Of a stretch of DNA of 64,000 bases, positions 8,276-47,791 are shown piece after piece (positions within the stretch are counted from its first letter, which is position 1; each line of letters opens with the position of its first letter). The position numbers and the translations under genes were made by a program. The notes beneath the pieces were generated by a model that was given only the letters and a program-made list of their open reading frames with translations, had not been told where the DNA came from and searched no databases. The DNA comes from Lactobacillus kefiranofaciens (GTDB lineage: Bacteria > Bacillota > Bacilli > Lactobacillales > Lactobacillaceae), in the NCBI RefSeq assembly GCF_900103655.1, contig NZ_FMXC01000007.1:1-64000 (forward strand). Reading direction: 5' to 3'.

Positions 8276-9595
8276 ATGGATGAAAAACTGGCGCTTGCCC
8301 AAAAGCCAGTTAGCAAAGGCTATAGATATTTTATGGTTTTCCTATGTATGCTAACGCAAGCAGTGCCATATGGAATAGCTCAATTGATTCAGCCATTATT
8401 TGTGCATCCATTAGTTAATACATTTCATTTTACATTAGCTTCATATACTTTGATTTTTACTTTTGGTGCAGTTGTCGGGTCACTGGTATCACCATTAGTT
8501 GGTAAAGCATTGCCAAAAGTTAATTTTAAAATTATGTATCTAATCGGTATTGTTCTATCGGCTGGAGCATATGGGATTTTCGGACTTAGTACAAAATTGC
8601 CTGGCTTTTACCTGGCTGGCATCATTTGTATGGTTGGTTCGACTTTTTATTCAGGTCAAGGTGTTCCTTGGGTAATTAACCACTGGTTTCCAGATGAAGG
8701 CCGTGGTGTTGCATTAGGGCTTGCCTTTTGTGGTGGTTCTGTTGGTGAGATTTTCTTACAGCCAATTACTCAAGCAATTTTAAAGAGCTTTATGGTTGGC
8801 GGTGCTAAAACAGGACATCTAACTTCAATGATGCCATTCTTTATTTTTAGCATTGCACTGCTAGTTATTGGTGTAATTATCGCGCTGTTCATTCGCGTTC
8901 CTAAAAGTAATGAAATTGTTTCTAGTGCAATTGATAAAAAAGATAGAGCCACTAAAGCTCAAACTAACCAGGATTTTCAAGGCTGGTCTAGTAAAGAGGT
9001 CTTGAAAATGAAGTGGTTCTGGATTTTTAGTATTGGTTTTCTGATTTTTGGCCTAGGCATGGCCTCTTTGAATGAAGATTATGCGGCCTTTTTGGATACC
9101 AAAATGTCTTTAACACAAGTAGGATTAATTGGTTCCGTCTTTGGCATGGCCGGAATTGTCGGTAATATCTCTGGCGGTTATCTATTTGATCGTCTTGGAG
9201 TAGCTAAAGCAATGACCTATGCTGGAGTAATGCTGGTAATCTCGATTTTGTTAATGTTGTTAATTAGCGTGCATCCTTACGGCGATTCCATGAATTCAGT
9301 TGCTGGGATTGGTTATGCTATCGCTAGTGGTTTATCGGTATTCAGTTACATGTCCGGGCCGGCTTTCATGACCAAGAGTCTCTTTGGCGCTAAAGCTCAG
9401 GGGGTAAATTTAGGTTATGTAAGTTTGACCTATGCAGTTGGCTTCGCCATCGGTGCACCGTTATTTGGCGTAATTAAGGGGATGACTAATTTCACAATTG
9501 CTTGGTGCTTTACGCTGATCTTTGTATCAGTTGGCTTCATTTTGTTGATTATTGCTGCACTAAGAATTAAGCGGTTGCAAAAGCAATTAATTTAA
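8276..9595 (+). CDS. MFS transporter, oxalate/formate antiporter (OFA) family
   Basis: Polytopic inner-membrane carrier of the major facilitator superfamily, 439 residues with about 12 predicted helices in two halves separated by a polar loop near residues 215-245. The family-type QPLFVHPLVNTFHFT block after helix 1 and the second-half repeat with FDRLGVAKAMTYAG resemble oxalate:formate antiporter-like (OFA) carriers. OFA annotation describes the family only; the real substrate is probably a small mono- or dicarboxylate, and the location beside fumarase, fumarate reductase and citrate genes makes an organic acid plausible. GAGAGGAGAG ribosome site before the ATG and a cre site just upstream. 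Confidence 0.82.
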   Translation: MDEKLALAQKPVSKGYRYFMVFLCMLTQAVPYGIAQLIQPLFVHPLVNTFHFTLASYTLIFTFGAVVGSLVSPLVGKALPKVNFKIMYLIGIVLSAGAYGIFGLSTKLPGFYLAGIICMVGSTFYSGQGVPWVINHWFPDEGRGVALGLAFCGGSVGEIFLQPITQAILKSFMVGGAKTGHLTSMMPFFIFSIALLVIGVIIALFIRVPKSNEIVSSAIDKKDRATKAQTNQDFQGWSSKEVLKMKWFWIFSIGFLIFGLGMASLNEDYAAFLDTKMSLTQVGLIGSVFGMAGIVGNISGGYLFDRLGVAKAMTYAGVMLVISILLMLLISVHPYGDSMNSVAGIGYAIASGLSVFSYMSGPAFMTKSLFGAKAQGVNLGYVSLTYAVGFAIGAPLFGVIKGMTNFTIAWCFTLIFVSVGFILLIIAALRIKRLQKQLI

Positions 9596-9646: not shown

Positions 9647-10507
9647 ATGAGTAGGAATAATGTCGCTGTTGACCAGAAAAAGACAGTAAGCAATGGCTAT
9701 AAATATTTTATGGTCTTTCTATGTATGCTGACCCAAGCAATTCCTTATGGGATTGCCCAAAATATTCAGCCGTTATTTGTTCATCCGCTCGTTAATACAT
9801 TTCATTTTACACTGGCATCTTATACTTTGATCTTTACCTTTGGGGCCGTAGCTGCTTCAATTGCTTCACCATTTATTGGTAAAGCATTGGAAAAGGTTAA
9901 CTACAAGATCATGTATTTGATTGGTATGGGTCTTTCGGCTTTAGCTTCTTTAAATGAAGACTATGCTGCCTTCCTAGATACGAAACTAACCTTAACTGAT
10001 GTTGGTTTGATCGGCTCAATGTATGGTGTTGGTTGTTTAATTGGTAATGTATCTGGTGGTGTCTTGTTTGATAAATTCGGCACAGCTAAATCAATGACCT
10101 ATGCAGCTTGCATGTACGTCTTATCAATCGCCATGCTGATTTTCGTTAGTCTGCAGCCTTATGGTGCCACTCAAAGCAGAGTAGCCGGTTATGCTTATGC
10201 GATCTTTTGTGGACTAGCAGTATTTAGCTACATGTCAGGTCCTGCCTTTATGGCAAAAGATTTGTTTGGCGCTAAAGAACAAGGGGTAATGCTAGGTTAT
10301 GTTGGTTTAGCTTACGCAATTGGTTTTGCGATTGGTGCGCCATTATTCGGCATTATTAAGGGAATGTCTAGTTTTACCGTTGCCTGGTACTTCATGCTGG
10401 CCTTTGTAATTATCGGCTTTGCCCTTTTAATTGTGGCTGTTATTCAAATTAAGAAATATCAAAAGAAATATATTGCTGAGCAAGCTGCAAAAGGCGCTAA
10501 CGCCTGA
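9647..10507 (+). pseudogene. OFA-family MFS transporter with large in-frame internal deletion
   Basis: Tandem paralogue of the preceding transporter: the N-terminal about 97 residues and the C-terminal about 187 residues align closely with it, but the middle is missing. The join is at LSALASLNEDYAAF, where the neighbour has some 160 residues (about 97-261) spanning helices 4-7 and the central loop. The frame is kept, giving a 286-residue open reading frame with about seven helices left, which breaks the two-half MFS architecture. Ribosome site GAGGGACG before ATG. Probably not a working carrier, although it could still be translated. Confidence 0.75.
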
Positions 10508-10519
10508 GGAGGAAAGACT

Positions 10520-11287
10520 ATGTGTACAGGATTAAGATTTACAGATGATCAAGGTAATCTATACTTTGGTCGCAACTTAGATGTAGCACAGGATTATGGT
10601 GAAAAAGTTATTATTACCCCTAGAAACTATCCTTTGCCGTATAAGTTTTTGCAGGATACGAAGACTAAAAAAGCTGTTATTGGGATGGGAATCGTTGTTG
10701 ACGGCTATCCATCATATTTTGACTGCTATAACGAAGACGGTTTAGGAATTGCCGGTTTGAATTTCCCTCACTTTGCGCAATTTAGCTCAGGCCCAGTTGA
10801 AGGGAAGACCAACCTGGCTTCTTATGAAATCATGCTCTGGGTAACCGAAAACTTTTCAACCGTTGAGGAAGTTAAAAAAGCTTTGAAGAATTTAAACTTA
10901 GTCAACGAAGCAATTAATTCTTCATTTCCAGTTGCTCCGCTTCATTGGATCATTAGTGACCAAAATGAAGCAATTGTGGTAGAAGACTCAAAACAATATG
11001 GTTTGAAAGTCTTTGAAGATAAGTTAGGTGTTTTAACTAATAGTCCTGATTTCAATTGGCATTTGACCAATTTAGGCAATTACACTGGCTTAAATGTTCA
11101 TGATGCCAGTGTTGAAAATTGAAATGGTCAAACTGTGACACCTTTGGGCGTTGGCACTGGCAGCTTAGGTCTACCTGGTGATAGTATTCCTGCCGACCGT
11201 TTTGTTAAGGCAGCATACCTCAATGCTAACTATCCAGTAGTAACTGGTGAAAAAGCTAATGTCGCTAAGTTTTTTAATATTTTAAAA
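10520..11287 (+). pseudogene. bsh: bile salt hydrolase (choloylglycine hydrolase), inactivated
   Basis: Family Ntn hydrolase that would cleave glycine or taurine from conjugated bile salts. The N-terminal part is well kept: nucleophile Cys2 (MCTG), Arg18 and Asp21 in GRNLD, the conserved NEDGLGIAGLNFP and LTNSPDFNWHL blocks. The frame is cut at codon 201 by TGA at 11120-11122, where the family has Trp (TGG); it then continues in the same frame with VGTGSLGLPGDSIPADRFVKAAYL. Similarity to bile salt hydrolases stops at FFNILK (11287), so the last about 60 residues of the usual 316-325 are gone and the frame runs into the fumC promoter. Two independent lesions make loss of function near certain. 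Confidence 0.93.
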
Positions 11288-11340: not shown

Positions 11341-11395
11341 AAAAGGTGATTGAAAATTAATGAAAACCTTATATCACTTAATAAGGAGGAAAATT

Positions 11396-12799
11396 ATGAG
11401 CGAAGAAGAATATCGTATTGAGAGTGACACTATTGGTCCCGTTAAGATTCCTAAAGATGCATTATGGGGTCCTCAAACTGAGAGAAGTCGCAATAACTTC
11501 CCGAGTGGTGAAAGAATGCCACTGCAAATCATTCGTGCTTTTTTACACTTAAAGAAAGCAGCCGCTGAATCAAACGTTGAAGTAGGGGATGAGTCTAGAG
11601 AAAAAGGTGAAGCAATTGAAGATGCTATTGATCATCTTTTAAAGTTGAACGATACAGACTTGCGTAAAGACTTTCCACTTCATGTTTTGCAAACTGGTTC
11701 AGGTACGCAAAGCAACATGAATGTCAACGAGGTTGTTGCTAATTTAGCTAATAAATTGCATCATGGCTTAGAAATTTTACCAAACGATGATGTTAACCGT
11801 GGTCAATCATCTAATGATACTTATCCAACAGCTATGAATATTGTTGCAGTGGAAGTATTAGACAAGCTTGAGCCAGCTATTCAGCACTTAATCGATGAAT
11901 TAGTGATCAAAGAGAAAAAGTACTGGAAGACTGTGAAAGTAGGACGTACTCACCTTCAAGATGCAACGCCTTTGACTTTTGGGCAAGAAGTTTCTGGTTA
12001 CATTTCAGCTTTAAAGCATGATCTAGCATATATTCAAGAATTGAAGCCGACTCTTTATGAACTGGCTATCGGCGGCACCGCAGTTGGTACTGGTTTGAAT
12101 GCTGCACCAGGTATGACTGAAAAAATTGCTGGCAAATTGTCCGAAGTTTATGGTCATGAATTTAAGGTTAAGACCAACAAGTTCTGGGGCTTAGCTCACC
12201 ACTCTGGCCTTGACGTGATGCACGGTGCTCTCAAGACTTTAGCTGCTGATATGTTTAAGATTGCCCAAGACATTCGTTTGCTTGCTTCTGGTCCTCGTGC
12301 TGGTTACCATGAATTAAATATTCCGGCTAATGAGCCAGGCTCAAGTATCATGCCAGGTAAGGTTAACCCAACCCAGGCTGAAGCTGTAACAATGGCTGCC
12401 GCTAAAGTCTTTGGTAATGATACTACAATTACCTTTGCCTGCTCACAGGGTAACTTTGAAATGAATGTCTTCAAGACTGTTTTAATTGCTGCCTTCCTTG
12501 ATTCATGTAACATTTTGACGGGGACGATTACCGGCTTTGCCGACAAGATGATTCATGGCTTGACTGTCAACGATGAACGCATGGATGAATTATTGGAGAA
12601 TTCATTGATGACAGTTACTGCTTTGTCACCACACATTGGCTATCATGCTGCGGCCAAGATCGCTCAAGCTGCAGATAAAGAAGGTACGACCTTGAAAGAA
12701 GCTGCCTTAAAGAGTGGTAAAGTGACAGAAGAACAATACGATGAGTGGATGGACTACATGAAGATGACTAACGTTGATAAGTCCACTCCAGAAGAATAA
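11396..12799 (+). CDS. fumC: fumarate hydratase, class II
   Basis: Interconverts malate and fumarate in the cytoplasm. The 467-residue protein belongs to the fumarase/aspartase superfamily and carries TGSGTQSNMNVNEV, the second conserved region GRTHLQDATPLTFGQE with its His, and the signature GSSIMPGKVNP with the flexible SS loop. Length fits FumC. ATG at 11396 is preceded by a perfect AAGGAGG; an in-frame ATG at 11360 lacks such a site. The next gene is a fumarate reductase-like flavoprotein 12 bases downstream, so the pair most likely runs malate to fumarate to succinate. Aspartase is an alternative in this superfamily but the sequence blocks favour fumarase. Confidence 0.95.
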   Translation: MSEEEYRIESDTIGPVKIPKDALWGPQTERSRNNFPSGERMPLQIIRAFLHLKKAAAESNVEVGDESREKGEAIEDAIDHLLKLNDTDLRKDFPLHVLQTGSGTQSNMNVNEVVANLANKLHHGLEILPNDDVNRGQSSNDTYPTAMNIVAVEVLDKLEPAIQHLIDELVIKEKKYWKTVKVGRTHLQDATPLTFGQEVSGYISALKHDLAYIQELKPTLYELAIGGTAVGTGLNAAPGMTEKIAGKLSEVYGHEFKVKTNKFWGLAHHSGLDVMHGALKTLAADMFKIAQDIRLLASGPRAGYHELNIPANEPGSSIMPGKVNPTQAEAVTMAAAKVFGNDTTITFACSQGNFEMNVFKTVLIAAFLDSCNILTGTITGFADKMIHGLTVNDERMDELLENSLMTVTALSPHIGYHAAAKIAQAADKEGTTLKEAALKSGKVTEEQYDEWMDYMKMTNVDKSTPEE

Positions 12800-12811: not shown

Positions 12812-14188
12812 ATGCCTAATAACGAAGAATTAAAGAAAAAATATGATGCAGTTATCATCGGTTCTGGTGGTACTGGTTTAACTGCTGCATTGCAAGCACG
12901 TGAACTCGGTTTAAATGTAGTTGTTTTAGAGAAAAATGGTAAAACTGGTGGCAATACCAATCGAGCTTCTAGTGGGATGAACGCTTCAGAATCACTAGTT
13001 CAACTGAATGAAGGGATTATTGACAACAACCGCGATTTCTATGAAGAAACTTTAAAAGGTGGCGGTTTGTTAAATGACCGTGCCATGCTTAAGTATTTTG
13101 TGCGCCATTCAGCAATCGCCATTAGCTGGCTGATGAAATATGGCGTTCGGTTGACTGATTTAACTATTACTGGAGGGATGAGCAGAAAGAGAGCTCACCG
13201 TCCTGGCTCCATGGAACCAGTTGGCTTTTATTTGACTTCGCGTTTGACCACGCAAGTTAAAAAGCAAGGCGTTAATATTTTTACCAACGCTAGAGTAACT
13301 AAGCTTTTACAGGATAGTAAGGGCAAGGTTAATGGCGTGGTTGTAGACACCGATGACGGTGAGAAGACCATTAAGGCTCAAGCGGTCTTATTAGCAACTG
13401 GTGGTTTTGGTGCTTCAAAAGAAATTATCAAGAAGTATCGACCGGATTTAGTTGACTACAAGACGACTAATCAACCAGGCGCTACTGGTGATGGCTTGAA
13501 ATTGGCTAAAAACGTTGGAGCACAACTAATGCAAATGAACTTTATTCAGGTGCACCCAACCGCTAATACCGACAATCCTCACGTTTACTTAATTGGTGAA
13601 GGTCTGCGTGGTGAAGGTGCCATCTTGGTCAACAAGAGCGGCCAACGTTTTGTCAATGAATTAAGCACGCGAAAGATTGTATCTGATGCAATTACTTCAT
13701 TACACGAAGATGGCGCATATTTGATCTTTGATTCTGGTGTACGTGGTCACTTCGCTGCGGTAGAATTTTATGATCATATTGGATTGGTTAGGCATGGCGA
13801 TAATTTAGCTGATTTGGCTAAAGAAATTGGTGTTGATCCGGCAAACTTGGAGACAACTGTGGCTGACTGGAATAAGGCAATTGAGAGTCATAAGGATAAA
13901 GAGTTTGGTCGAACAACTGGGATGGATCGTGCCATTGATCGTGGTCCATACTATGCTATTCATATTCATCCAGCTATTCATTACACGATGGGTGGTATCC
14001 ATATTAATACTGAAACCCAAGTCTTGGATACTAATGGTAATGTAATTAAAGGATTGTATGCGGCTGGTGAAGTTTCTGGTGGACTTCACGGTAATAACCG
14101 AATTGGTGGTAACTCAATTGCTGAAACAGTTATTTTCGGTCGTCAAGCCGGTATTCAAATGGCTAAGTTTGTTCGTGAAAACAAGTAG
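12812..14188 (+). CDS. fumarate reductase flavoprotein (FAD-binding)
   Basis: Probably reduces fumarate to succinate with FAD as cofactor, regenerating oxidised carrier. The 458-residue protein starts with the Rossmann GSGGTGLTAAL fold and GGNTNRASSGMN, and has residues that align with the catalytic centre of flavocytochrome c fumarate reductases: an Arg in NKSGQRFVNE, a His in HYTMGGIHIN and an Arg in GNNRIGGNS. It lacks heme-binding and FMN-attachment domains, so it is a single soluble flavin module; the electron donor is unknown. GGGAGAAAAT ribosome site, 12 bases after fumC. Related 3-ketosteroid or urocanate-type reductases share the fold, but the fumC partner favours fumarate. Confidence 0.85.
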   Translation: MPNNEELKKKYDAVIIGSGGTGLTAALQARELGLNVVVLEKNGKTGGNTNRASSGMNASESLVQLNEGIIDNNRDFYEETLKGGGLLNDRAMLKYFVRHSAIAISWLMKYGVRLTDLTITGGMSRKRAHRPGSMEPVGFYLTSRLTTQVKKQGVNIFTNARVTKLLQDSKGKVNGVVVDTDDGEKTIKAQAVLLATGGFGASKEIIKKYRPDLVDYKTTNQPGATGDGLKLAKNVGAQLMQMNFIQVHPTANTDNPHVYLIGEGLRGEGAILVNKSGQRFVNELSTRKIVSDAITSLHEDGAYLIFDSGVRGHFAAVEFYDHIGLVRHGDNLADLAKEIGVDPANLETTVADWNKAIESHKDKEFGRTTGMDRAIDRGPYYAIHIHPAIHYTMGGIHINTETQVLDTNGNVIKGLYAAGEVSGGLHGNNRIGGNSIAETVIFGRQAGIQMAKFVRENK

Positions 14189-14218: not shown

Positions 14219-14239
14219 TGTAAGCGCTTAGTGTATAAT
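14219..14239 (+). promoter_or_regulatory. promoter with cre-like site of the MDH/LDH-family gene
   Basis: TGTAAGCGCTTAGT (14219-14232) matches the cre consensus at 12 of 14 positions and contains the palindromic TAAGCGCTTA; a TATAAT box follows at 14234-14239. The operator lies in the spacer, where bound CcpA would block polymerase. Confidence 0.65.
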
Positions 14240-14287: not shown

Positions 14288-15217
14288 ATGAGTAGAAAAG
14301 TATTTCTTGTTGGTGATGGTGCTGTAGGTTCAACTTTTGCAAATGATTTATTGCAAAATGCTACTGTTGATGAATTAGCAATTTTTGATGTTGCTAAGGA
14401 TCGTCCAGTTGGTGACTCAATGGATTTAGAAGATATTACTCCATTTATGGGTCAAACTGATATCCACCCAGCTGAATACAGCGATGCTAAGGATGCAGAT
14501 GTATGTGTAATTACTGCTGGTGTGCCAAGAAAACCAGGTGAAACTAGATTAGACTTAGTTGCTAAGAATGTTAAAATCTTGAAGAGCATTGTTCAACCAG
14601 TAGTTGAATCAGGCTTTAAGGGTGTCTTTGTTGTTTCAGTTAACCCAGTAGATATTTTAACCACCTTAACTCAGAAATTATCAGGCTTCCCTAAGAGTCG
14701 CGTAATTGGTACTGGTACTTCACTTGATTCAATGCGTTTACGGGTTGAACTTGCTAAGAGATTAAATGTGCCAGTTGCTAAGGTTAACTCCATGGTTTTG
14801 GGTGAACATGGTGATACTAGTTTTGAAAACTTTGACGAATCCATTGTTGATGGTAAGCCATTACGTGACTACTCAGAGATTAACGATGATGTTTTAAGTG
14901 AAATCGAAACTGACGTCCGTAAGAAGGGTGGCAAGATCATTGGCAACAAGGGTGCAACTTTCTATGGTGTTGCAATGATGCTTACTCAAATCGTGAGTGC
15001 TATTTTAAACAACCGTTCAATCTGCTTACCATTATCAGCTCCAATTAATGGCGAATATGGTATTAAGCATGATCTTTACTTAGGTACTCCAGCCGTAATT
15101 AATGGTCAAGGAATTGAACAAGTTATTGAAACTAAGATTTCTGATGCTGAACAAGCTAAAATGACCAACTCAGCTGATAAGATGCAAGAAGTCTTAGATG
15201 GAATTAAATTAGATTAA
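14288..15217 (+). CDS. LDH/MDH-superfamily dehydrogenase, predicted malate dehydrogenase
   Basis: NAD-dependent 2-hydroxyacid dehydrogenase of the L-lactate/malate family, 309 residues. Visible: GDGAVGS nucleotide loop, Asp34 for NAD, Asp147 and Arg150 in LDSMRLR, and the catalytic His174 in LGEHGD. The decisive substrate position is Arg81 in GVPRKPGETRLD. L-lactate dehydrogenases have Gln there (Gln102 in the standard numbering), and Gln102Arg is the classical change that turns Bacillus LDH into a malate dehydrogenase. Most of the body is LDH-like, so automatic annotation would say L-lactate dehydrogenase, but I predict oxaloacetate as substrate. Next to fumC and fumarate reductase this gives oxaloacetate to succinate. 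Own promoter with cre, own terminator. Confidence 0.8.
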   Translation: MSRKVFLVGDGAVGSTFANDLLQNATVDELAIFDVAKDRPVGDSMDLEDITPFMGQTDIHPAEYSDAKDADVCVITAGVPRKPGETRLDLVAKNVKILKSIVQPVVESGFKGVFVVSVNPVDILTTLTQKLSGFPKSRVIGTGTSLDSMRLRVELAKRLNVPVAKVNSMVLGEHGDTSFENFDESIVDGKPLRDYSEINDDVLSEIETDVRKKGGKIIGNKGATFYGVAMMLTQIVSAILNNRSICLPLSAPINGEYGIKHDLYLGTPAVINGQGIEQVIETKISDAEQAKMTNSADKMQEVLDGIKLD

Positions 15218-15376: not shown

Positions 15377-17123
15377 ATGTCTCTGTTTAAAAAAGAAAGA
15401 AACAAAGCAATAGTTAACTTTATAGATATAGATAATGGATCTGCTCAACTAGCTAGCTCAGGCGAGTTGAATGGAGAAGCAGGGCAAAGGATTGTATATG
15501 ATAGTCAAGCTCAAATTAATAGCTTAGAGCAGCAAGGATATGTATTAGAGAAAAATAATTTTAATCCAAATGGAGAAACGCCATTTTTTGGAAAGCAAAC
15601 AGAATATGTAATTTCTTTTAAGCATCAGAAAATAGCAATTACTCATCCTGATGAGAAATCAGGTATTACGTCAGCTGATTTGAAGAAAGTTGGACAACAG
15701 ATTGTGCACTATGATGGTGCTGCTAATCGAACACCACAAGATAGCGTTAATCAAGTTGTTTTTAGGCGGACAGTGCTAGTTGATCGAGTAACTGGACAAA
15801 AGAAGATGCAGCCTTGGCAGCCTGCTGAGCAAAATTTCTTGATGGTTTCTACACCTGAAATTCCCGGATATATTGCTCAACATGCTTATGTTGGCGGTGA
15901 AAGCGTTACGCCATTAGACTGCAACCGTAATTATGAGGTAACCTATGAGATTAATCATGCACCCTCAAGCAATCAGCAAAAAGTTGAAATTAAATGAGAT
16001 TAAATATGTTGATCTAAGTAATGATAATGAAGAAATTACTACCGATACACTAGTAGGCGAGCCGAATGCCGTAGTTAATTATGATCCCCAGGAAACGGTT
16101 GCTAAGTTAAAGCAGCAAGGATATCTATTGATCAATAATGGTTATAATCCTAATCAAGAAATTCAATTTTTTAGTAATAATGACGATTATGTTCCTACTT
16201 TTATTATGACCATGAAGCGTTCGGTTGTTCTGGTTGATGCAGATCATCCTACCAAACTTATTCCTAAAAGAGAGTATGCTAAGCAGATTCAACTGATTGT
16301 TAGCTATAGTGGTGCTGGTGAGTTGACCCCACCTGACAATATTCAAACAATTAATTTAACTAGAAAACTTCAGATTAATGAAGCTAGTGGTGAGATTATT
16401 AAATCTAGTCCTTGGCAAGCTGACCAAGAAAAGTTTAATGATGTTCAGGTCCCATTAATTCCGGGCTTTCATGCCGATAAAAACAAGATTGCGGGGATGA
16501 AAAGCAAGATCTCTATCGAAAAAGTAGTGAAGTATCAAGCTAATGGTAGAATTATCCCAATTGATGCAGAAGGCAATGAAATTCCTAATGCCAAGCAACC
16601 AATTTATAAGACTGACGGATATGATCCTACCAAAGTAGAAGCTGGTATTATCTTGCCTGTAATTAAGGACTACAGTTGCGATTTAGTAACTATTACTCCA
16701 AAGGATCCCGCCAAAAATACTAAGGTAGTTTATCAACCAGTGAAACAAGATGATAATGTACTGGTAATTAAAGTAGGCCAGCAAAAGGCGAAAAAAACTA
16801 ATACAAAGAAGAAAGCAAAAGTTGAGCCTAAATCTCAACCTCAAACTAGAACAAAGTCTCAGAAAAAGCCGATCCAGATGGCAGTGGTCAATTTTATTGA
16901 TTTGGATCAAAATGGTAGGCAGTTAACATCTTCTGGTATCTTGAAAGGTTATGCTGGCAGCAGCATTAACGCTTTATATAGTACTAAAATACCACTTAAA
17001 ATTATTAAACAGGCAGGTTATCATATTGTCTTTAACAATTTTGACATCCCAGATACGGTGCAAAAATTTGGTGATCAGCCATCAATCGTCCAGATTTTTA
17101 CCATTGGCCTAAGTCGAAAATAA
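15377..17123 (+). pseudogene. MucBP-like repeat protein without signal peptide, frameshifted
   Basis: Two overlapping open frames (15377-15997 and 15945-17123) form one gene broken by a single-base shift near 15990: the first ends NHAPSSNQQKVEIK, the second resumes with EIKYVDLSND. Together about 580 residues with three copies of a module that begins like VNFIDLDQNGRQLTSSG (N-terminus, after the break, and near the C-terminus) and linker units with YSGAGELTPPDN, typical of mucus-binding (MucBP/Mub) repeats. Between repeats 2 and 3 is a Lys-rich linker. There is no signal peptide at the N-terminus and no LPxTG or other anchor at the end, which is unusual for this repeat type. Function unknown; the intact ancestor may have been an intracellular or a truncated adhesin-derived protein. 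Confidence 0.75.
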
Positions 17124-18702: not shown

Positions 18703-18800
18703 ATTAATTGTGAGTTGAAACAATTTTGAAGTTAAAAATTGTTTTAACAAAGTAGAGGATAACTGTCTTGAATCAAAAACAAGAAGGGGAGAAATATTCT

Positions 18801-19499
18801 ATGCCTGTAGGAAAGAGAATCTATCTAGAGCGACAGATGCCTGATCCGCAAATTGTCGCGGGATTTAAGGGGATACCTGCGTCGAATACAGCTGATTGTA
18901 TGGAACGTAACTGTGCAATGAATCCACGTATCAAGTTGATGTCTAATCCCGATGAAGAAATGGTGGGACCTGCATTTACTGTTCATACTAGAGCCGGTGA
19001 TAATCTAGCTATTTATGCTGCATTAAGATATTGTCAGCCTGGGGATGTGATTGTGATTGACGATGAGGGCGATAATACCAGATCCTTAATTGGTGAAGTA
19101 ATGATGTCATATTTGCGTGATCAAAAGAAGATCGCTGGAATTGTGATTGATGGCCCGATTCGTGACATTGATAATTTACAACATTGGAAGTTACCAATTT
19201 ATGCAACGGGTACTACACCAGGTGGTCCATACAAGGAAGGGCCTGGTGAGTTGAATGTACCAGTCGCTTGTGGGAATGTGAGCGTTAATCCAGGCGATGT
19301 GATTTTAGGCGATCCGGATGGCATTATCTGTATTCCGCGTCAAGATGCACCGTCAATTTTGCCTAAGGCACAAGCCTTTCATCGACAAGATGATGCTAAA
19401 GCGATTGCTTTTAGCAAGGGTGAAGTTGATCTTAGTTGGGTTGATCATTCGTTGAAAGATAAAGGCTTTGATATTATTGACGATGTTTATCGGCCATAG
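18801..19499 (+). CDS. RraA-like protein (HMG aldolase / oxaloacetate decarboxylase family)
   Basis: Member of the RraA/4-hydroxy-4-methyl-2-oxoglutarate aldolase superfamily, formerly annotated as demethylmenaquinone methyltransferase-like. 232 residues. The active-site pair Arg121-Asp122 in IDGPIRDID and the upstream GEVMMSYL segment match the metal-dependent aldolase branch, members of which also decarboxylate oxaloacetate. Placed in one transcription unit with a citrate/dicarboxylate carrier and next to citrate lyase, it is a good candidate for the oxaloacetate decarboxylase of citrate fermentation; this is inference. ATG 18801 follows AAGGGGAG; an in-frame TTG at 18768 is a less likely start. 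Confidence 0.82.
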   Translation: MPVGKRIYLERQMPDPQIVAGFKGIPASNTADCMERNCAMNPRIKLMSNPDEEMVGPAFTVHTRAGDNLAIYAALRYCQPGDVIVIDDEGDNTRSLIGEVMMSYLRDQKKIAGIVIDGPIRDIDNLQHWKLPIYATGTTPGGPYKEGPGELNVPVACGNVSVNPGDVILGDPDGIICIPRQDAPSILPKAQAFHRQDDAKAIAFSKGEVDLSWVDHSLKDKGFDIIDDVYRP

Positions 19500-19517: not shown

Positions 19518-20987
19518 ATGAAAGCTTTAGAGAAAGTAAATTATAAAGGCTTTATTTGGCCTTTGATTGTCGGAATTGTGCTGTGGTGCATTACACCATG
19601 GCGTCCTAGTGGTTTAACGCCGCAAGCTTGGCAAATGTTTGCCATCTTTGTTGCGACGATTGTGGGCTGTATTACTAAGCCATTACCAATTGGTGGTACA
19701 ACCTTGACTGGGCTAGTAGTGACTGTCTTAGTTGGCTTGGCTCCAATGAAGGACGTGACTAATGCTAAGGGTATGGTAGTTAACCAAGGCGTGCTTAGTT
19801 CGTTTGGTAATTCTGCAGCTTGGCTAATTGCGATGGCCTTTATTATGGCTCACGGAATCAGTAAAACTGGTTTAGGTAATCGCATTGCTTATATTATGAT
19901 TCAAAAATTTGGTAAGAAGTCATTAGGTATTGGCTATGCAATTACTGGTTTGGAATTAGTTTTAGGTGCTTTGATTCCGTCTAACTCTGCTCGTACTGGT
20001 GGGGTTGTTTGGCCTGTAGTTCAATCAGTATCTAAGGAAGGATATGATTCTAAGCCTGATGAGGCATCACGTAAAAAGATTGGTGCTTATATTGACTTTA
20101 CAGCTTTTCATGCCAATATTTTGTCGACGGCTTTATTCATTACTGGTGCTGCGCCTAACATGGTTGCTCAACAATTAGCTGCTCAAAAAGGATATCAAAT
20201 GTCTTGGGCCGGTTGGTTCTTTACTGCAATTGTGCCTGTAGCTGTGGGTGCAATTATCGTGCCTTGGGTAATTTATAAAATGTATCCACCAGAAATCAAG
20301 GAAACTCCTGATGCTAAGAAATGGGCTGATGCTAAATTGCAAGCAATGGGTCCAATGTCTGTACCAGAAAAGATTATGTCAGCTGTCTTTGCATTGTCTA
20401 TTGTGCTTTGGGTTTTATCTGGTTTCTTCAAGATTCCACAATTAGATGCGACTTTTGTTGCCTTCTTAGCTGTCACTATTTTAATGGTAACTGGCGTTTT
20501 AACTATGCAAGATGCCTTGAAAGAAACCGGTGCTTGGAACATTTTGATTTGGCTTTCAATTCTGATGTTTATGGCTGGTAAATTGATTTCATACGGCTTC
20601 ATTGATTGGTTCTCCAAACTTGTACAAAGTGATTTACGTGGTGTTAGCTGGGGCTTTGTATTAGCGATCTTGGTCTTGCTTTTATTCTATACTCACTACT
20701 TCTTTGCTAGTGGTACCGCTCATATGACTGCACTTTACTTGTCATTCTTGTCTGTTGCTGTTGCAACTGGGGCTCCTTTAGGTCTTTCTGCGATGCTGTT
20801 GGCCTTCACGGGTGCCTTCAACGCTTCAACTACTCATTATGCTAATGGCCCTGCTTCAATTTTGGCTACGACCGGTTATGTCAAGCAAGGCGAATGGTGG
20901 AAGATGAACTTTGTTTTAGGTTTGATCTATCTAGTTATCTTTGGTGTGATTGGTACTCTTTGGATGAAAGTAATCGGTGTTTGGTAA
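19518..20987 (+). CDS. citT: DASS-family citrate/dicarboxylate carrier (CitT-like)
   Basis: Integral membrane carrier of the divalent anion:sodium symporter family, 489 residues and about 12-14 hydrophobic helices. The two conserved helical hairpins with SNT-like loops are seen as PSNSARTGG and the late FNASTTHYANGP block. Chloroplast 2-oxoglutarate/malate translocators and bacterial CitT citrate/succinate antiporters belong here. A citrate-in, succinate-out exchange would suit the surrounding enzymes, but the substrate is inferred from context. Follows the RraA-like gene by 18 bases with an AGCAGGGGAA site. Confidence 0.85.
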   Translation: MKALEKVNYKGFIWPLIVGIVLWCITPWRPSGLTPQAWQMFAIFVATIVGCITKPLPIGGTTLTGLVVTVLVGLAPMKDVTNAKGMVVNQGVLSSFGNSAAWLIAMAFIMAHGISKTGLGNRIAYIMIQKFGKKSLGIGYAITGLELVLGALIPSNSARTGGVVWPVVQSVSKEGYDSKPDEASRKKIGAYIDFTAFHANILSTALFITGAAPNMVAQQLAAQKGYQMSWAGWFFTAIVPVAVGAIIVPWVIYKMYPPEIKETPDAKKWADAKLQAMGPMSVPEKIMSAVFALSIVLWVLSGFFKIPQLDATFVAFLAVTILMVTGVLTMQDALKETGAWNILIWLSILMFMAGKLISYGFIDWFSKLVQSDLRGVSWGFVLAILVLLLFYTHYFFASGTAHMTALYLSFLSVAVATGAPLGLSAMLLAFTGAFNASTTHYANGPASILATTGYVKQGEWWKMNFVLGLIYLVIFGVIGTLWMKVIGVW

Positions 20988-21919: not shown

Positions 21920-21943
21920 CAAAAATAGTTAGGTGGCATGCTT

Positions 21944-22999
21944 ATGGATCAAGTCGTTGATTTGTTTTTAAGTGACGCATCAACTCGAAAGAAATGGGAG
22001 GAATTATTAAGTTCACTTGGTTTGCATGACTTCAGCGAACGTGAAGTTGACGTAATTGACCATACAATCGGGCTAAAAGATGAAGAAGGCAATTTAGTTG
22101 GCACGGGTAGCGTGGCTGGCAATGTTTTAAAATATATCGGCGTAAAAAATGACAATATGGCCCAAGGTGCACGTTTTAATAAGGTTGTTTCAAGCTTAAT
22201 GCAGTATCTAGTTAATGAACGAATTTTTCATTCATTTGTATTTACGAAGGCAAAATATGCGACAAGCTTTGAACATTTGCACTTTAATTTACTGGCCAAG
22301 ACGGATACGGCTGCTTTTCTTGAGAATGGCATGCCGGATGTTACCGACTATGTTGCCGATTTACCTAAAGTTGAAGATCAAGCAACCAAGAAGGTTGCAG
22401 CCATAGTGATGAATGCTAATCCTTTTACCTTAGGACACCAATATTTGGTTAAATTGGCTAGTGAAGAGAATGATTTAGTTTACGTTTTCGTTGTCGCTAA
22501 TGATGCTTCATTGTTTAGTTTTGATGAGCGTCTCGAATTGGTTAAAGCGGGCACTAAGGCATTTGCCAATGTGAAGGTTGTCTCAGGTGGAGACTATATG
22601 GTATCACCGGCAACTTTTCCAGCATATTTCTTAAAAACACCAGCCGATTTAATCAAAGTACAAACAGTAATCGATGCTGCTGTATTCAAAAATAAGATTG
22701 CCCCGGACTTAAACATTCACAAACGTTATTTAGGTCAAGAACCGTTTTCAAAAACCACCAACTTCTATAATGAAAGTCTAATAGATGAGCTTGGACATGA
22801 TATTGATGTAGTAGTTGTTAAACGCCTTCAAGAAAATCAAGAAATTGTCACTGCTACTAAGGTAAGACAATTAATCAAGGCAGATAAGTTAAAGGAAATC
22901 AGTAAATTCGTACCGCCAACAACGTATGAATTTGTTAAAAAAAACATGGATGAATTACAATCCAGAATTAAGAAAGGAATGAAAATTGATGGAAATTAA
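21944..22999 (+). CDS. citC: [citrate (pro-3S)-lyase] ligase
   Basis: Acetylates the prosthetic group of the CitD subunit with acetate and ATP, converting citrate lyase to its active form. The 351-residue protein has an N-terminal GNAT-like part followed by a nucleotidyl-transferase domain with the motif NANPFTLGHQYLV (HxGH type). Two ATGs are close: 21938 lies one base from AGGTGG, while 21944 lies 7 bases away, so 21944 is chosen. Overlaps citD by 11 bases, pointing to coupled translation. Confidence 0.93.
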   Translation: MDQVVDLFLSDASTRKKWEELLSSLGLHDFSEREVDVIDHTIGLKDEEGNLVGTGSVAGNVLKYIGVKNDNMAQGARFNKVVSSLMQYLVNERIFHSFVFTKAKYATSFEHLHFNLLAKTDTAAFLENGMPDVTDYVADLPKVEDQATKKVAAIVMNANPFTLGHQYLVKLASEENDLVYVFVVANDASLFSFDERLELVKAGTKAFANVKVVSGGDYMVSPATFPAYFLKTPADLIKVQTVIDAAVFKNKIAPDLNIHKRYLGQEPFSKTTNFYNESLIDELGHDIDVVVVKRLQENQEIVTATKVRQLIKADKLKEISKFVPPTTYEFVKKNMDELQSRIKKGMKIDGN

Positions 23000-23282
23000 A
23001 ACCACAGCCGTTGCTGGAACACTTGAAAGTTCTGATATTCAAATCATGATTTCTAAAGGTTCTAACGGCATTGAAATCGATTTGGAATCGGAAGTTGAAA
23101 AAGCATATGGTGATCAAATTAGAAAAGTAATTACTGATACTTTGAAGAGCTACGGACTTGAAAATGCTAAAGTTAAGGCAACTGATAAGGGTGCACTTGA
23201 CTGTGTAATCAAGGCTCGTACTTTAGCTGCAGCACAACGTGCAACTGAAACGCAAGATAAGCCAGATTTGGAGGTGCTCTAA
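22989..23282 (+). CDS. citD: citrate lyase acyl carrier protein (gamma subunit)
   Basis: Carries the 2'-(5''-phosphoribosyl)-3'-dephospho-CoA group that holds the acyl intermediates. 97 residues; the attachment serine is Ser14 in VAGTLESSD, at the same position as in the E. coli protein, and KGALDCVIKAR is the second family block. ATG 22989 follows AGAAAGGA inside the end of citC. The last base of its stop codon is the first base of the citE start. Confidence 0.95.
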   Translation: MEIKTTAVAGTLESSDIQIMISKGSNGIEIDLESEVEKAYGDQIRKVITDTLKSYGLENAKVKATDKGALDCVIKARTLAAAQRATETQDKPDLEVL

Positions 23283-24196
23283 TGACTTACGTTAAGAATC
23301 GTTTGCGTAGAACTATGATGTTTGTACCTGGCAACAATCCAGCCATGATCAAGGACGCTGGTATTTATGGTGCTGACTCAATCATGCTTGATTTGGAGGA
23401 CTCAGTTTCATTAACCGAAAAGGATGCTGCCAGAATGCTTGTTTACGAAGCAATTAAGACAGTTGATTTTGGCGTTAGTGAGATTGTTGTCAGAGTTAAT
23501 GGACAAGATACGCCATTTTATGACGAAGATGTTCGTGCGATGGTTAAAGCTGGTGTCGATGTTATTCGTTTGCCAAAGACTGAATCAGCAGCCATGATTC
23601 AAAAATTGGTTAAGGATATTGAACACTGGGAAGATGAATATGGCATTGAAAAAGGCTCAATCGGTGTAATGGCTGCTATTGAAAGTGCCAAGGGCGTTTT
23701 GAATGCACCAGAGATCGCTACTGCAACGCCATTAATGATGGGCTTAGCCGTATCAGGTGAAGATTACACTGCAGATATGCATACGCACCGTTATCCAGAT
23801 GGTCGCGAATTGGAATTTGCTCGCAACATGGTTTTACAAGCTGCTCGTGCTGCTGATGTATATGCTTTTGACACTGTCTTCTCCAATATGAAGGATACTG
23901 AAGGCTTCTATCGTGAAACCAATTATATTCATGAATTGGGTTATGACGGTAAGAGTTTGGTAAATCCACGTCAAATTCAAATGGTTAATAAAGTCTTCAA
24001 CCCATCCAAAGAAGATATTGAACAGGCCAAGAATGTTGAAAATGCTATTCGTGAAGCTAAAGCTAAGGGTTCAGGTGTTATTTCACTTAACGGTAAGATG
24101 GTTGATAAACCAGTCGTAGAAAAAGCAACCCGTGTCCTTGAAACTGCTAAGGCTTCTAACTTGATTGATGAAGAAGGTAACTACATTGGAGAATAA
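23282..24196 (+). CDS. citE: citrate lyase beta subunit (citryl-CoA lyase)
   Basis: Cleaves citryl-ACP to acetyl-ACP and oxaloacetate. The 304-residue TIM-barrel protein has the N-terminal [12 protein letters not shown], the metal/substrate region [10 protein letters not shown], and the conserved [10 protein letters not shown] near the C-terminus. An AGGTGCTCTA stretch including GGAGG precedes the ATG within citD. The C-terminus overlaps the start of citF. Confidence 0.96.
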
Positions 24197-25727
24197 AGTT
24201 AAACGCGAATTACCAGACGATTTAATGAACAAAATGGGATTAAAGCCATTTGAAACTACAGAAATTGGTCATCCAGAAGTAAAACGTGTAGCTCCTAAAG
24301 TCAGAGTTACTACTGGTCAAAACAAGATTGTTGATTCACTTGATGAAGTAATCAAGAATAACTTGCAAGATGGTATGACAATTTCATTCCACCACCACTT
24401 TAGAAATGGTGACTTTGTCTTTAATTTAGTTATGGATAAGATTATTAAGATGGGCTACAAGGATTTGACTTTAGCTCCAAGTTCATTGACTGGTGTAATG
24501 AATGATAAAGTAATTGAAGCAATCAAGAAGGGTGTAATTACTAACATTACTTCTTCAGGGATGCGTGGCTCCTTAGGTGACTTCGTTTCTCATGGCGGCT
24601 TGAAGAATCCAGTTATTTTCCGTTCACACGGCAATCGTGCTCGGTCAATTGAAGATGGAGAAATCAAGATTGACGTTGCTTTCTTAGGCGTACCTGTATC
24701 AGACCCAGCCGGTAACGCTAATGGTCAAGATGGAGATGCTGTCTTTGGCTCATTAGGTTATGCTTTAATGGATGCACGATATGCTAATAAAGTGGTTTTG
24801 TTGACAGATAATATTGTTGACTATCCAAATACTCCTGCATCAATTAAGCAGGATCAAGTTGATTATGTAGTTAAAGTCGATAAGGTAGGAGATCCTGATA
24901 AGATTGGTTCAGGTGCTACTCGTTTCACGAAAGACCCTAAGGAATTGAAGATTGCTCAAATGGTTAACCAAGTAATCGTTAACTCACCATATTACAAGCA
25001 AGGCTTTAGTTTCCAAACTGGTTCAGGTGGTGCCGCATTGGCTGTAACCCGTTATCTTCGTCAAAGCATGATCAAGGACGGCATCACTGCTTCATTTGCC
25101 TTAGGTGGTATCACTAAGCCAACTACTGATTTACTTGAAGAAGGCTTAGTCAGAAAAGTAATGGATGTTCAGGACTTTGACAAGGGTGCTGCACAATCGA
25201 TGGCTAATAATAAGAATCAACAAGAAATTGATGCTTCTTGGTACGCTGATCCACATAACAAGGGTGCCGTAGTAAATAACCTTGATGTTTCTATTTTATC
25301 AGCTTTGCAAATTGATACTGATTTTAATGTTAATGTAATGACTGGTTCTGATGGCGTAATTCGTGGCGCTGTAGGTGGTCACCAAGACGCAGCAGCTGGT
25401 GCTAAGATGACGATTATTACTGCTCCACTTGTTCGTGGCAGAAATGCAACTGTTGTACCTAGTGTTGAAACGATTGTTACCCCAGGTTCATCAATCGATG
25501 TTTTGGTAACTGAGCGTGGTATTGCAATTAATCCAGCTCGTCAAGACCTGATTAAGGCATTTAAGAATGTTCCAGGACTTAATATTTTGGACATTAAAGA
25601 CTTGCAGAAGATGGCAGAAAAGCAAGTTGGTGCACCAAAGCCACTTGAATATACTGATAGAACTGTTGCTTTAGTTGAATACCGTGATGGTACAATTATT
25701 GATGCAATTAAAGAAGTTAAAGACTAG
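24186..25727 (+). CDS. citF: citrate lyase alpha subunit (citrate:acetyl-ACP transferase)
   Basis: Exchanges the acetyl group on CitD for citrate. About 513 residues, the usual CitF size, with the conserved [11 protein letters not shown] segment near residue 65 and [15 protein letters not shown] in the second half. The best start appears to be TTG at 24186, 8 bases after AAGAAGG; ATG 24168 in the same frame overlaps that site and has no site of its own. The gene therefore overlaps citE by 11 bases. It is the last cit gene here: neither citX nor citG follows, and a strong terminator lies 14 bases after the stop. Confidence 0.94.
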
Positions 25728-46776: not shown

Positions 46777-47791
46777 ATGAATAAAGCAAAAGTTTTGGTT
46801 TTAGGCGGTTTTAAGGGACGATGCTTTAACTGATTTAAAGAATAACTGTGAAGTTACAATTGGTCCTGTAGGGCATCGTCCAGATGATGATCGTCAGTGG
46901 GTACTTGATCATATTGCTGAATATGATGGTGTGATTGTGGCTAAGATCCCTTTTGATAAGAAAATAATTGATGCTGCTAAGAATTTAAAAATCATTTCAA
47001 CTTATGGGGTAGGTTTTGATCATATTGATGTTGCCTATGCTAAGCAAAAAGGCATTGTTGTTTCAAACTGTCCGAAAAGCGTGTTGCGTCCAACTGCTGA
47101 ATTAACTTTAGCAATGATCTTGGGTTCAGCACGGCGGTTACGCTATTATGATCATGCTTTGCGTGAAGGTGTCTTTTTGGATGCTAATGAGTATGACAAT
47201 CAAGGCTACAGTATTGAAGGCAAGACATTAGGTATTTTAGGTATGGGTAGAATTGGCCAGCAAGTGGCACGGTTTGCTAAAGCTTTTGGTATGAAGATAA
47301 TTTATCATAATCGTCATTGTGTTGCTGAAGATATTGCTAATGAATTGCAAGCAAAATATGTTGATTTTGATACTTTAATTAAAGAGTCTGATTTCTTAAC
47401 TTTACATTTGCCTTTGACTAAAGAAAGTCATCACGTTATTAATGCGGATGTCTTTAAGCAAATGAAGAAGACGGCATTTTTAATTAATGTCGCTCGTGGA
47501 TCGCTCGTCAATGGTGAGGACTTAGTTTCTGCCTTAAAGAATGATGAGATTGCCGGAGCAGCACATGATGTCTTTGAAAATGAACCACATCCAAGACAGG
47601 AATTAGTGGAGATGGATAATGTAATTATGACACCACATGTGGGCTCGGCTACTCATGTTGCTCGTTATAATTTAACTAAAGAAGCAGCTGACAATATTTT
47701 GAATTTCTTTGAAAATAAACAAGCAGAAAACAAATTAATTAAAGGCAATCAAAAAAGCGCGATATTTGTTCGCGCTTTTTATTTTACATAA
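46777..47791 (+). pseudogene. D-2-hydroxyacid dehydrogenase, frameshifted near the N-terminus
   Basis: NAD-dependent D-isomer 2-hydroxyacid dehydrogenase. ATG 46777 starts MNKAKVLVLGGF and then shifts: AAGGGACGAT at 46813-46822 has one G too many; without it the frame reads FKDDALTDLKNNCEV and joins the rest of about 338 codons. The remainder keeps the Rossmann loop GMGRIGQQVARF, catalytic Arg in NVARGSLVN, the Glu near NEPHP and His in MTPHVGSAT. The frame also runs through the downstream terminator hairpin, ending GNQKSAIFVRAFYFT, suggesting loss of an earlier stop or a natural overlap. A protein could only start from an internal site, for example near 46931, which lacks part of the substrate domain. 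Confidence 0.85.
47752..47780 (+). terminator. terminator after the hydroxyacid dehydrogenase
   Basis: Stem AAAAAGCGCG / CGCGCTTTTT, lying inside the end of the open frame; also able to act on the convergent permease gene. Confidence 0.85.

Follow-up and report, generated by a model that had tools for sequence, protein, structure and literature searches.

The window analysed here is a stretch of 64,000 nucleotides of Lactobacillus kefiranofaciens, and on its forward strand, at 14288..15217, it carries a complete open reading frame (ORF) of 309 amino acids with an ATG start. The first-pass annotation had described a protein resembling L-lactate dehydrogenase (LDH) at this place, which ORF analysis and Pfam confirmed, with Ldh_1_N covering residues 4-141 and Ldh_1_C residues 144-304. 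From the ORF, Pfam, an alignment of LDHs and malate dehydrogenases (MDHs) and the trees, we predict that this window gene encodes an LDH-derived MDH. Directly upstream, on the same strand, lie fumC (11360..12799; class II fumarate hydratase, malate to fumarate; best NCBIfam hit TIGR00979 at 590.7 bits, under the cut-off of 664.75) and an frdA-like soluble flavoprotein of the flavocytochrome c family (12812..14188; NF005064 at 613.2 bits, cut-off 542; FAD_binding_2), which we propose as a putative fumarate reductase converting fumarate to succinate. Downstream follow two ORFs with mucin-binding domains, a C1-like peptidase and then, with all coordinates on the forward strand, an RraA-like protein (18768..19499; PF03737; NF004850 'hypothetical protein' above cut-off), a DASS-family di-/tricarboxylate transporter (19518..20987; TIGR00785 at 364.3 bits, cut-off 198.6), an alpha/beta hydrolase, and the citrate lyase genes citC (ligase; 21938..22999; TIGR00124 at 303 bits, cut-off 262.1), citD (acyl carrier protein; 22986..23282; TIGR01608 at 125.8 bits, cut-off 63.5), citE (beta; 23282..24196; TIGR01588 at 441.6 bits, just under the cut-off of 443.4) and citF (alpha; 24165..25727; TIGR01584 at 786 bits, cut-off 501.45). 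These coordinates bear out the earlier description of fumC and a fumarate reductase upstream with citrate lyase nearby. Judged by its family, the DASS transporter is a candidate citrate/succinate carrier. The RraA-like protein could supply the oxaloacetate decarboxylase that the citrate cluster otherwise lacks and would then compete with the window enzyme at one branch point, an idea that comes from one family model, NF006731 (aldolase/oxaloacetate decarboxylase), which scored 125 bits, below its cut-off of 179.

Upstream of the window gene, at 14219..14232 on the forward strand and two bases before a TATAAT-like box, we found a cre-like site, TGTAAGCGCTTAGT, which agrees at 12 of 14 positions with TGWAARCGYTWWCA, the sequence we take to be the cre consensus. 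Five of nine relatives examined have such a site at about the same place (L033, L034, L036, L037 and L041); in L047 and L048 the matches differ and lie elsewhere, and L044 and L058 have none. The site suggests possible carbon catabolite control. Several other features of the region were noted. The two mucin-binding ORFs (MucBP_2, Muc_B2) overlap each other at 15377-17123 and separate the window gene from the remaining genes of the citrate cluster. Further upstream, two neighbouring MFS transporter genes (8276-9595 and 9647-10507) have similar starts, and by eye the second (286 amino acids) looks like a copy from which about 150 internal residues are missing. They are followed at 10520-11122 by a choloylglycine-hydrolase-family ORF of 200 amino acids, which looks shortened because it matches only positions 1-196 of the 316 in the profile. 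Elsewhere in the same genome, malic enzyme (PF00390) and Ldh_2 (PF02615) gave no match, and two D-2-hydroxyacid dehydrogenase domains (PF00389) were found, one at 46850-47734 of the window and the other on another contig (C50).

The family profiles label the window protein as an LDH, as the earlier reading had expected of an automatic annotation. It scored 416.5 bits with NF000824 (NCBIfam L-lactate dehydrogenase; cut-off 339) and 334.5 bits with TIGR01771 (NCBIfam LDH; cut-off 303.55), and none of the MDH models in the NCBIfam list rose above its own cut-off, TIGR01763 (the Bacilli MDH family) giving 209.4 bits against 351.85. The nearest solved relatives also carry the name L-lactate dehydrogenase. 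HMMER aligned the protein pairwise with each of the five solved chains that matched best (9jlo, 6j9s, 1ez4, 2zqy and 1llc), and in these alignments Arg81, within GVPRKPGETRLD, fell in the specificity column, standard position 102, which is Gln in four of the five; 1llc has K-Q where the others have Q-K. A multiple alignment, in which standard numbers were assigned by motif, gave the same placement, so the earlier claim that Arg81 occupies the Gln102 position holds and a misalignment of this residue is ruled out. In the same numbering, Thr142 corresponds to 163, Ser178 to 199, Gly214-Gly215 to 236-237 and Thr224 to Thr246, and the catalytic Arg109, Asp168, Arg171 and His195 are Arg87, Asp147, Arg150 and His174. 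An AlphaFold model built on a 10-row alignment reached a mean pLDDT of 68.4 with low confidence at residues 169-180 and 214-224; as the model is only moderate, we base no geometric claim on it.

We compared the active-site positions across three sets of aligned rows. The Arg102 clade comprises 122 rows including the window gene, which stand for 121 genes in 118 genomes, one gene of genome G036 being counted twice (L016, L105). The LDH reference contains 70 rows, 29 from Lactobacillaceae (26 genes) and 41 further ones, with 3 of the 70 repeating a gene; L247, a Bacilli row with Arg102, Met199, Ala246 and Pro250, was excluded from it. The MDH comparison set consists of 14 TIGR01763 rows (L217-L230). 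All aligned rows of the three sets keep the catalytic Arg109, Asp168, Arg171 and His195. Position 102 is Arg in 122/122 clade rows, Gln in 70/70 LDH rows and Arg in 14/14 TIGR01763 rows. At position 163, Thr is found throughout the clade (122/122), Ser in 29/29 Lactobacillaceae LDHs and 40/41 further LDHs, and Gln in the TIGR01763 rows. At position 199, 116 of the 122 clade rows have Ser and the other 6 Glu; the LDH rows have Glu in 69/70 (29/29 Lactobacillaceae and 40/41 further rows) and Gln in 1/70, and the TIGR01763 rows have Met. Position 236 is Gly in 122/122 clade rows and 14/14 TIGR01763 rows and Ala in 70/70 LDHs, and position 237 is Gly in 110 clade rows (Ser or Ala in the other 12), Tyr in 70/70 LDHs and Gly in 13/14 TIGR01763 rows. 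Query position 117 is Ser in 119/122 clade rows versus Ala in 25/29 Lactobacillaceae LDH rows. The LDH-typical Thr246 is retained in 122/122 clade rows, and position 250 is Ile or Val (Val in the window protein) instead of Pro. In 15 of 69 rows from the genus Lactobacillus (L084-L087, L091-L094, L098-L104) the loop reads RKPGMTR, with an MDH-type Met instead of Glu at query position 85, which brings the sequence of the loop one step closer to that of MDHs. The first-pass annotation had picked out the Arg at 102; the loss of Glu199 and the change of Ala236-Tyr237 to Gly236-Gly237 had escaped it.

The first shell of one ancestral and one modern MDH includes Arg102, Met199, Gly236, Gly237, Ala246 and Pro250 (PMC4109310), so the clade shares three of these residues (102, 236 and 237); at 199 it no longer has the LDH acid, and Met has not taken its place. 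According to PMC9486893, this acidic residue makes the site neutral in charge when the loop closes over it, and the LDH-typical Thr246 is unfavourable to oxaloacetate; PMC5054688 has nothing about positions 235-236. Loss of the acid alongside the gain of Arg102 would fit a substrate with a second carboxylate. That Arg102 is kept in 121/121 genes together with the accompanying changes is far beyond chance.

The residue pattern is widespread within the family. The source genome has three matches: the window gene, a Gln102 LDH (L002; 53% identity) and L003 (34%), which by its sequence we take for a hydroxyisocaproate-dehydrogenase type. Among 75 genomes of the genus, of which 60 reach a completeness of 90% or more with contamination no higher than 5%, 67 contain a relative of at least 67% identity, 33 contain a relative of 46-55%, and 39 have the first without the second. 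The closer relatives carry Arg102 in 69/69 rows (68 genes in 67 genomes, genome G016 having two), and the more distant ones carry Gln102 in all 9 of the 33 genomes in which they were examined. A search of the family at E ≤1e-104 gave matches in 74 of the 397 genomes, spread over 8 of the 40 genera, and all 53 matches outside Lactobacillus have Arg102, at identities down to 56%. A peculiarity of one strain is thereby ruled out. The enzyme had earlier been attributed to lactobacilli; the clade spans Lactobacillus and seven other genera of the 40 sampled in Lactobacillaceae. Outside this family, the LDH-type loci examined (27 of 30 of one search, L063, L064 and others) have Gln102, the exception being the MDH-like L247. 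Two genomes showed additional copies: Lactobacillus hamsteri has two Arg102 genes on separate contigs (L039 and L045; identity to the window protein 86% and 79%), and a metagenome-assembled genome of Candidatus L. pullistercoris (L016, L040, L105) has damaged pieces of a second copy beside an intact gene.

To describe the gene context of these relatives, we counted genes on the same strand within 9 kb at 105 loci, 53 from other genera and 52 from the genus (31 named records and 21 fetched stretches), leaving out duplicates and short stretches; some of the stretches end at a contig end. A fumC or frdA gene was near the Arg102 gene at 37/52 genus loci and 20/53 loci of other genera, and a citrate lyase gene at 28/52 and 36/53, respectively. 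One or the other was present at 44/52 and 42/53, that is at 86 of the 105 loci; the remaining 19 had no fumC, frdA or citrate lyase gene within 9 kb, some of these stretches stopping at the end of a contig. The order fumC-frdA-gene-RraA-DASS-citC-citE-citF lies within about 10 kb in L. apis, L. kimbladii, L. kullabergensis, L. huangpiensis, L. helsingborgensis and L. melliventris, which we take to be bee-gut species, and in others. In many relatives, L041, L042, L044 and L046-L057 among them, the RraA-like gene immediately follows the enzyme gene, at +0.8 kb. A public record of L. fermentum has fumarase, 'flavocytochrome c', 'L-lactate dehydrogenase' and 'DASS family sodium-coupled anion symporter' in this order with citC/D/E further on, and the product named L-lactate dehydrogenase there is a clade relative with 62% identity, Arg102 and Ser199.

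Trees were computed from rows thinned by identity, with 123 of 205 distinct proteins in a quick tree and 56, 57 and 48 rows in the later ones; the long-branched L003 and L247 were omitted from the 56-, 57- and 48-row trees and from the approximately unbiased (AU) tests. In the quick tree all 58 Arg102 rows that are not of MDH type form one clade (SH-aLRT 100) inside the Gln102 LDHs of Lactobacillaceae. The same clade was recovered in a careful 56-row tree from which columns 102 and 199 had been removed (24 rows; bootstrap 100, SH-aLRT 99), and again, at 100/99, in a careful 48-row tree without MDHs, where the branches enclosing it with Lactobacillaceae LDHs include 99/95, 99/96, 100/99 and 100/98 as well as weaker ones such as 84/29. 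When nine MalDH type 3 rows were added, they formed a group of their own (100/100) in a 57-row tree whose bootstrap had not settled, and an arrangement that puts every one of the 28 Gln102 rows on the same side was only 1.55 log-likelihood units worse (p-AU 0.383). This arrangement, which would mean that all other LDHs in the set arose within Lactobacillaceae, is reached if nothing but the long MDH branch is shifted to the clade's stem, and we consider the result a rooting weakness caused by an unplaced long branch, not evidence for that tree. Because the distant MDHs leave the root unfixed, a further AU test was carried out with non-Lactobacillales LDHs as outgroup. Forcing the 12 Gln102 rows of Lactobacillaceae into one group that excludes the clade was 85 log-likelihood units worse (p-AU 2.4e-5), and in the same LDH-only set forcing the 18 Lactobacillales Gln102 rows together was 83 units worse (p-AU 1.3e-4). 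Among LDHs, these results support descent of the clade from a canonical Gln102 LDH of Lactobacillaceae. The LDH origin proposed at the outset is therefore upheld by the nesting and by the AU tests among LDHs, with the reservation that the root is left unfixed once the distant MDHs are included.

The six clade rows that keep Glu199 bear on the order of the changes. Five of them (L165, L168, L169, L170 and L172) belong to one genus, and their representative L165 branches first in the clade in three trees; the sixth, L171, comes from a different genus, is second, nested or unplaced across the three trees and does not group with the other five, so its Glu199 may be a retained state or a reversal. 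As Glu199 rows branch first, the sequences suggest that Gln102Arg preceded Glu199Ser. It seems probable to us, if less certain than the enzyme's predicted activity, that a single, old and natural reversal turned an early Lactobacillaceae L-LDH into an MDH by Gln102Arg, with convergent gain of Gly236-Gly237 and later loss of Glu199.

Together, these results lead us to propose that the window gene encodes an NAD(H)-dependent MDH descended from the canonical Gln102 L-LDH of Lactobacillaceae, with a probability of roughly 0.87 for this predicted activity and descent. In the proposed pathway, citrate would enter through the DASS carrier and be split by citrate lyase into acetate and oxaloacetate, which the window enzyme would reduce with NADH to malate; fumarase would then convert malate to fumarate and the flavoprotein fumarate to succinate, so that NAD+ could be regenerated without lactate production. 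Within the active site, loss of Glu199 would take away a charge that would offset Arg102, and Gly236-Gly237 would widen the pocket for the larger substrate. We are less sure of the reductive direction in citrate fermentation than of the substrate preference, because the enzyme could also serve aspartate supply. Conversion of citrate to succinate has been described for L. plantarum (PMC3389018; PMC4895336), and PMC3084715, with reference to Kaneuchi et al., reports it for 59% of 39 strains of L. reuteri. Thr246 and Ile/Val250, the six Glu199 rows and the 19 of 105 loci without linked genes count against the MDH reading.

Arg102 could bind any distal carboxylate, and with Gly at 236 and a small residue (Gly, Ser or Ala) at 237 in 122/122 rows the wider pocket might accept a different 2-keto acid with two carboxylates, such as 2-oxoglutarate, which would be reduced to L-2-hydroxyglutarate. 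We think this quite unlikely: the linked citrate lyase, fumarase and fumarate reductase make or use oxaloacetate, malate and fumarate, and no gene producing 2-oxoglutarate is among the identified neighbours in the window. The protein might also still be mainly an L-LDH whose Arg102 just broadens the substrate range, in which case the LDH label would be correct. The best solved matches are LDHs, the NCBIfam LDH models are above their cut-offs and Thr246 is retained; in addition, L. reuteri 55730 produced relatively more L-lactate than strain 6475, and a second L-LDH gene was suggested by the authors as the cause (PMC3084715), a strain comparison that is possible counter-evidence to the MDH reading. 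The same source lists a 'malate dehydrogenase' with citrate lyase for 55730. Set against this possibility, which we regard as very unlikely, Arg102 is never lost in the 122 rows, positions 199, 236 and 237 have changed as well, and the source genome already has its separate Gln102 LDH. In L. jensenii DSM 20557 (NZ_AYYU01000005.1) the Arg102 gene is the only match to the query at E ≤0.001, and this species is said to make only D-lactate (PMC6805993; PMC13028666; PMC10688475), which speaks against an LDH role because good LDH activity should yield L-lactate.

We find it barely credible that the gene was never an LDH and represents a retained or transferred MalDH, either a common type 3 enzyme or an intermediate one. 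Such an origin would account for Arg102, Gly236 and Gly237 as in the TIGR01763 rows, and the p-AU of 0.383 (1.55 units) leaves it room in that the set with nine distant MDH rows does not fix the root. The LDH-only AU tests go against it; Thr246, Ile/Val250 and the Glu199 of the first-branching rows are LDH states; and identity of the clade to the Gln102 LDHs of Lactobacillaceae is about 49-56%. A transferred MalDH type 3 is rejected by those tests and by the residue comparison. We therefore retain the reading of an LDH-derived MDH: its function is expected to be MDH-like, its descent lies in the LDH family, and its residues agree fully with neither canonical LDH nor MalDH type 3.

Whether evolution can run in reverse is a question for which the enzyme specificity of this superfamily has long served as a test case. 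At least four natural changes from MDH to LDH are counted in the superfamily (PMC9486893), and evolution as described in PMC9486893 and PMC4109310 runs from MDH to LDH, the excerpts consulted making no mention of the reverse. The literature searched contains no report of an Arg102 LDH-type clade; an earlier mention elsewhere is possible. An L. rhamnosus 'malate dehydrogenase' has been placed in a family tree (PMC6528580), and this name and the L. reuteri one are hints of earlier labels, their relation to the Arg102 clade being putative. A natural change from LDH to MDH with sampled early branchers would make the reverse path directly testable, and the Glu199 rows may let it be read stepwise. 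If the proposal is true, the family-wide label 'second L-lactate dehydrogenase' is wrong for many lactobacilli of food, the gut, the vagina and bees. Several such proteins are carried in Swiss-Prot as 'L-lactate dehydrogenase 2'. For vaginal L. crispatus, three L-LDH clusters (PMC12977605) and two L-LDH genes (PMC10688475) have been given, and these genes are candidate cases for a check of the label.

The L. plantarum gene ldhL2 (lp_1101) has been called a second L-LDH gene (PMC6459948) and is eleven locus-tag numbers from the fumarase gene lp_1112 (PMC3389018); it is probably an ortholog of the window gene. Six clade rows of one genus (L159-L162, L164 and L176) have the Arg102 gene beside the DASS gene and citC/E/F. 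The Gln102Arg variant of Bacillus stearothermophilus LDH (Wilks et al. 1988) became an oxaloacetate enzyme, a laboratory reversion from LDH to MDH (PMC4109310), and shares with the clade an LDH scaffold with the specificity change at 102. Unlike that laboratory mutant, the clade is natural and fixed and has further changes at 163, 199, 236 and 237. With MalDH type 3, described by Met199, Ala/Ser246 and Pro250 (PMC9486893), it has in common Arg102, Gly236, Gly237 and, in 15 of the 69 genus rows, the loop Met; it differs in Ser199 instead of Met, Thr246 instead of Ala and Val/Ile250 instead of Pro, does not reach the TIGR01763 cut-off and is distant in the tree. With canonical L-LDHs (9jlo, 6j9s and 1ez4) it shares the family, the catalytic residues and Thr246, and it nests inside the LDHs; Asp68 of the window protein is as in the non-allosteric 1ez4 enzyme (PMC9486893). 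What sets it apart from these LDHs is Arg102 in place of Gln, Ser199 in place of Glu and Gly236-Gly237 in place of Ala-Tyr.
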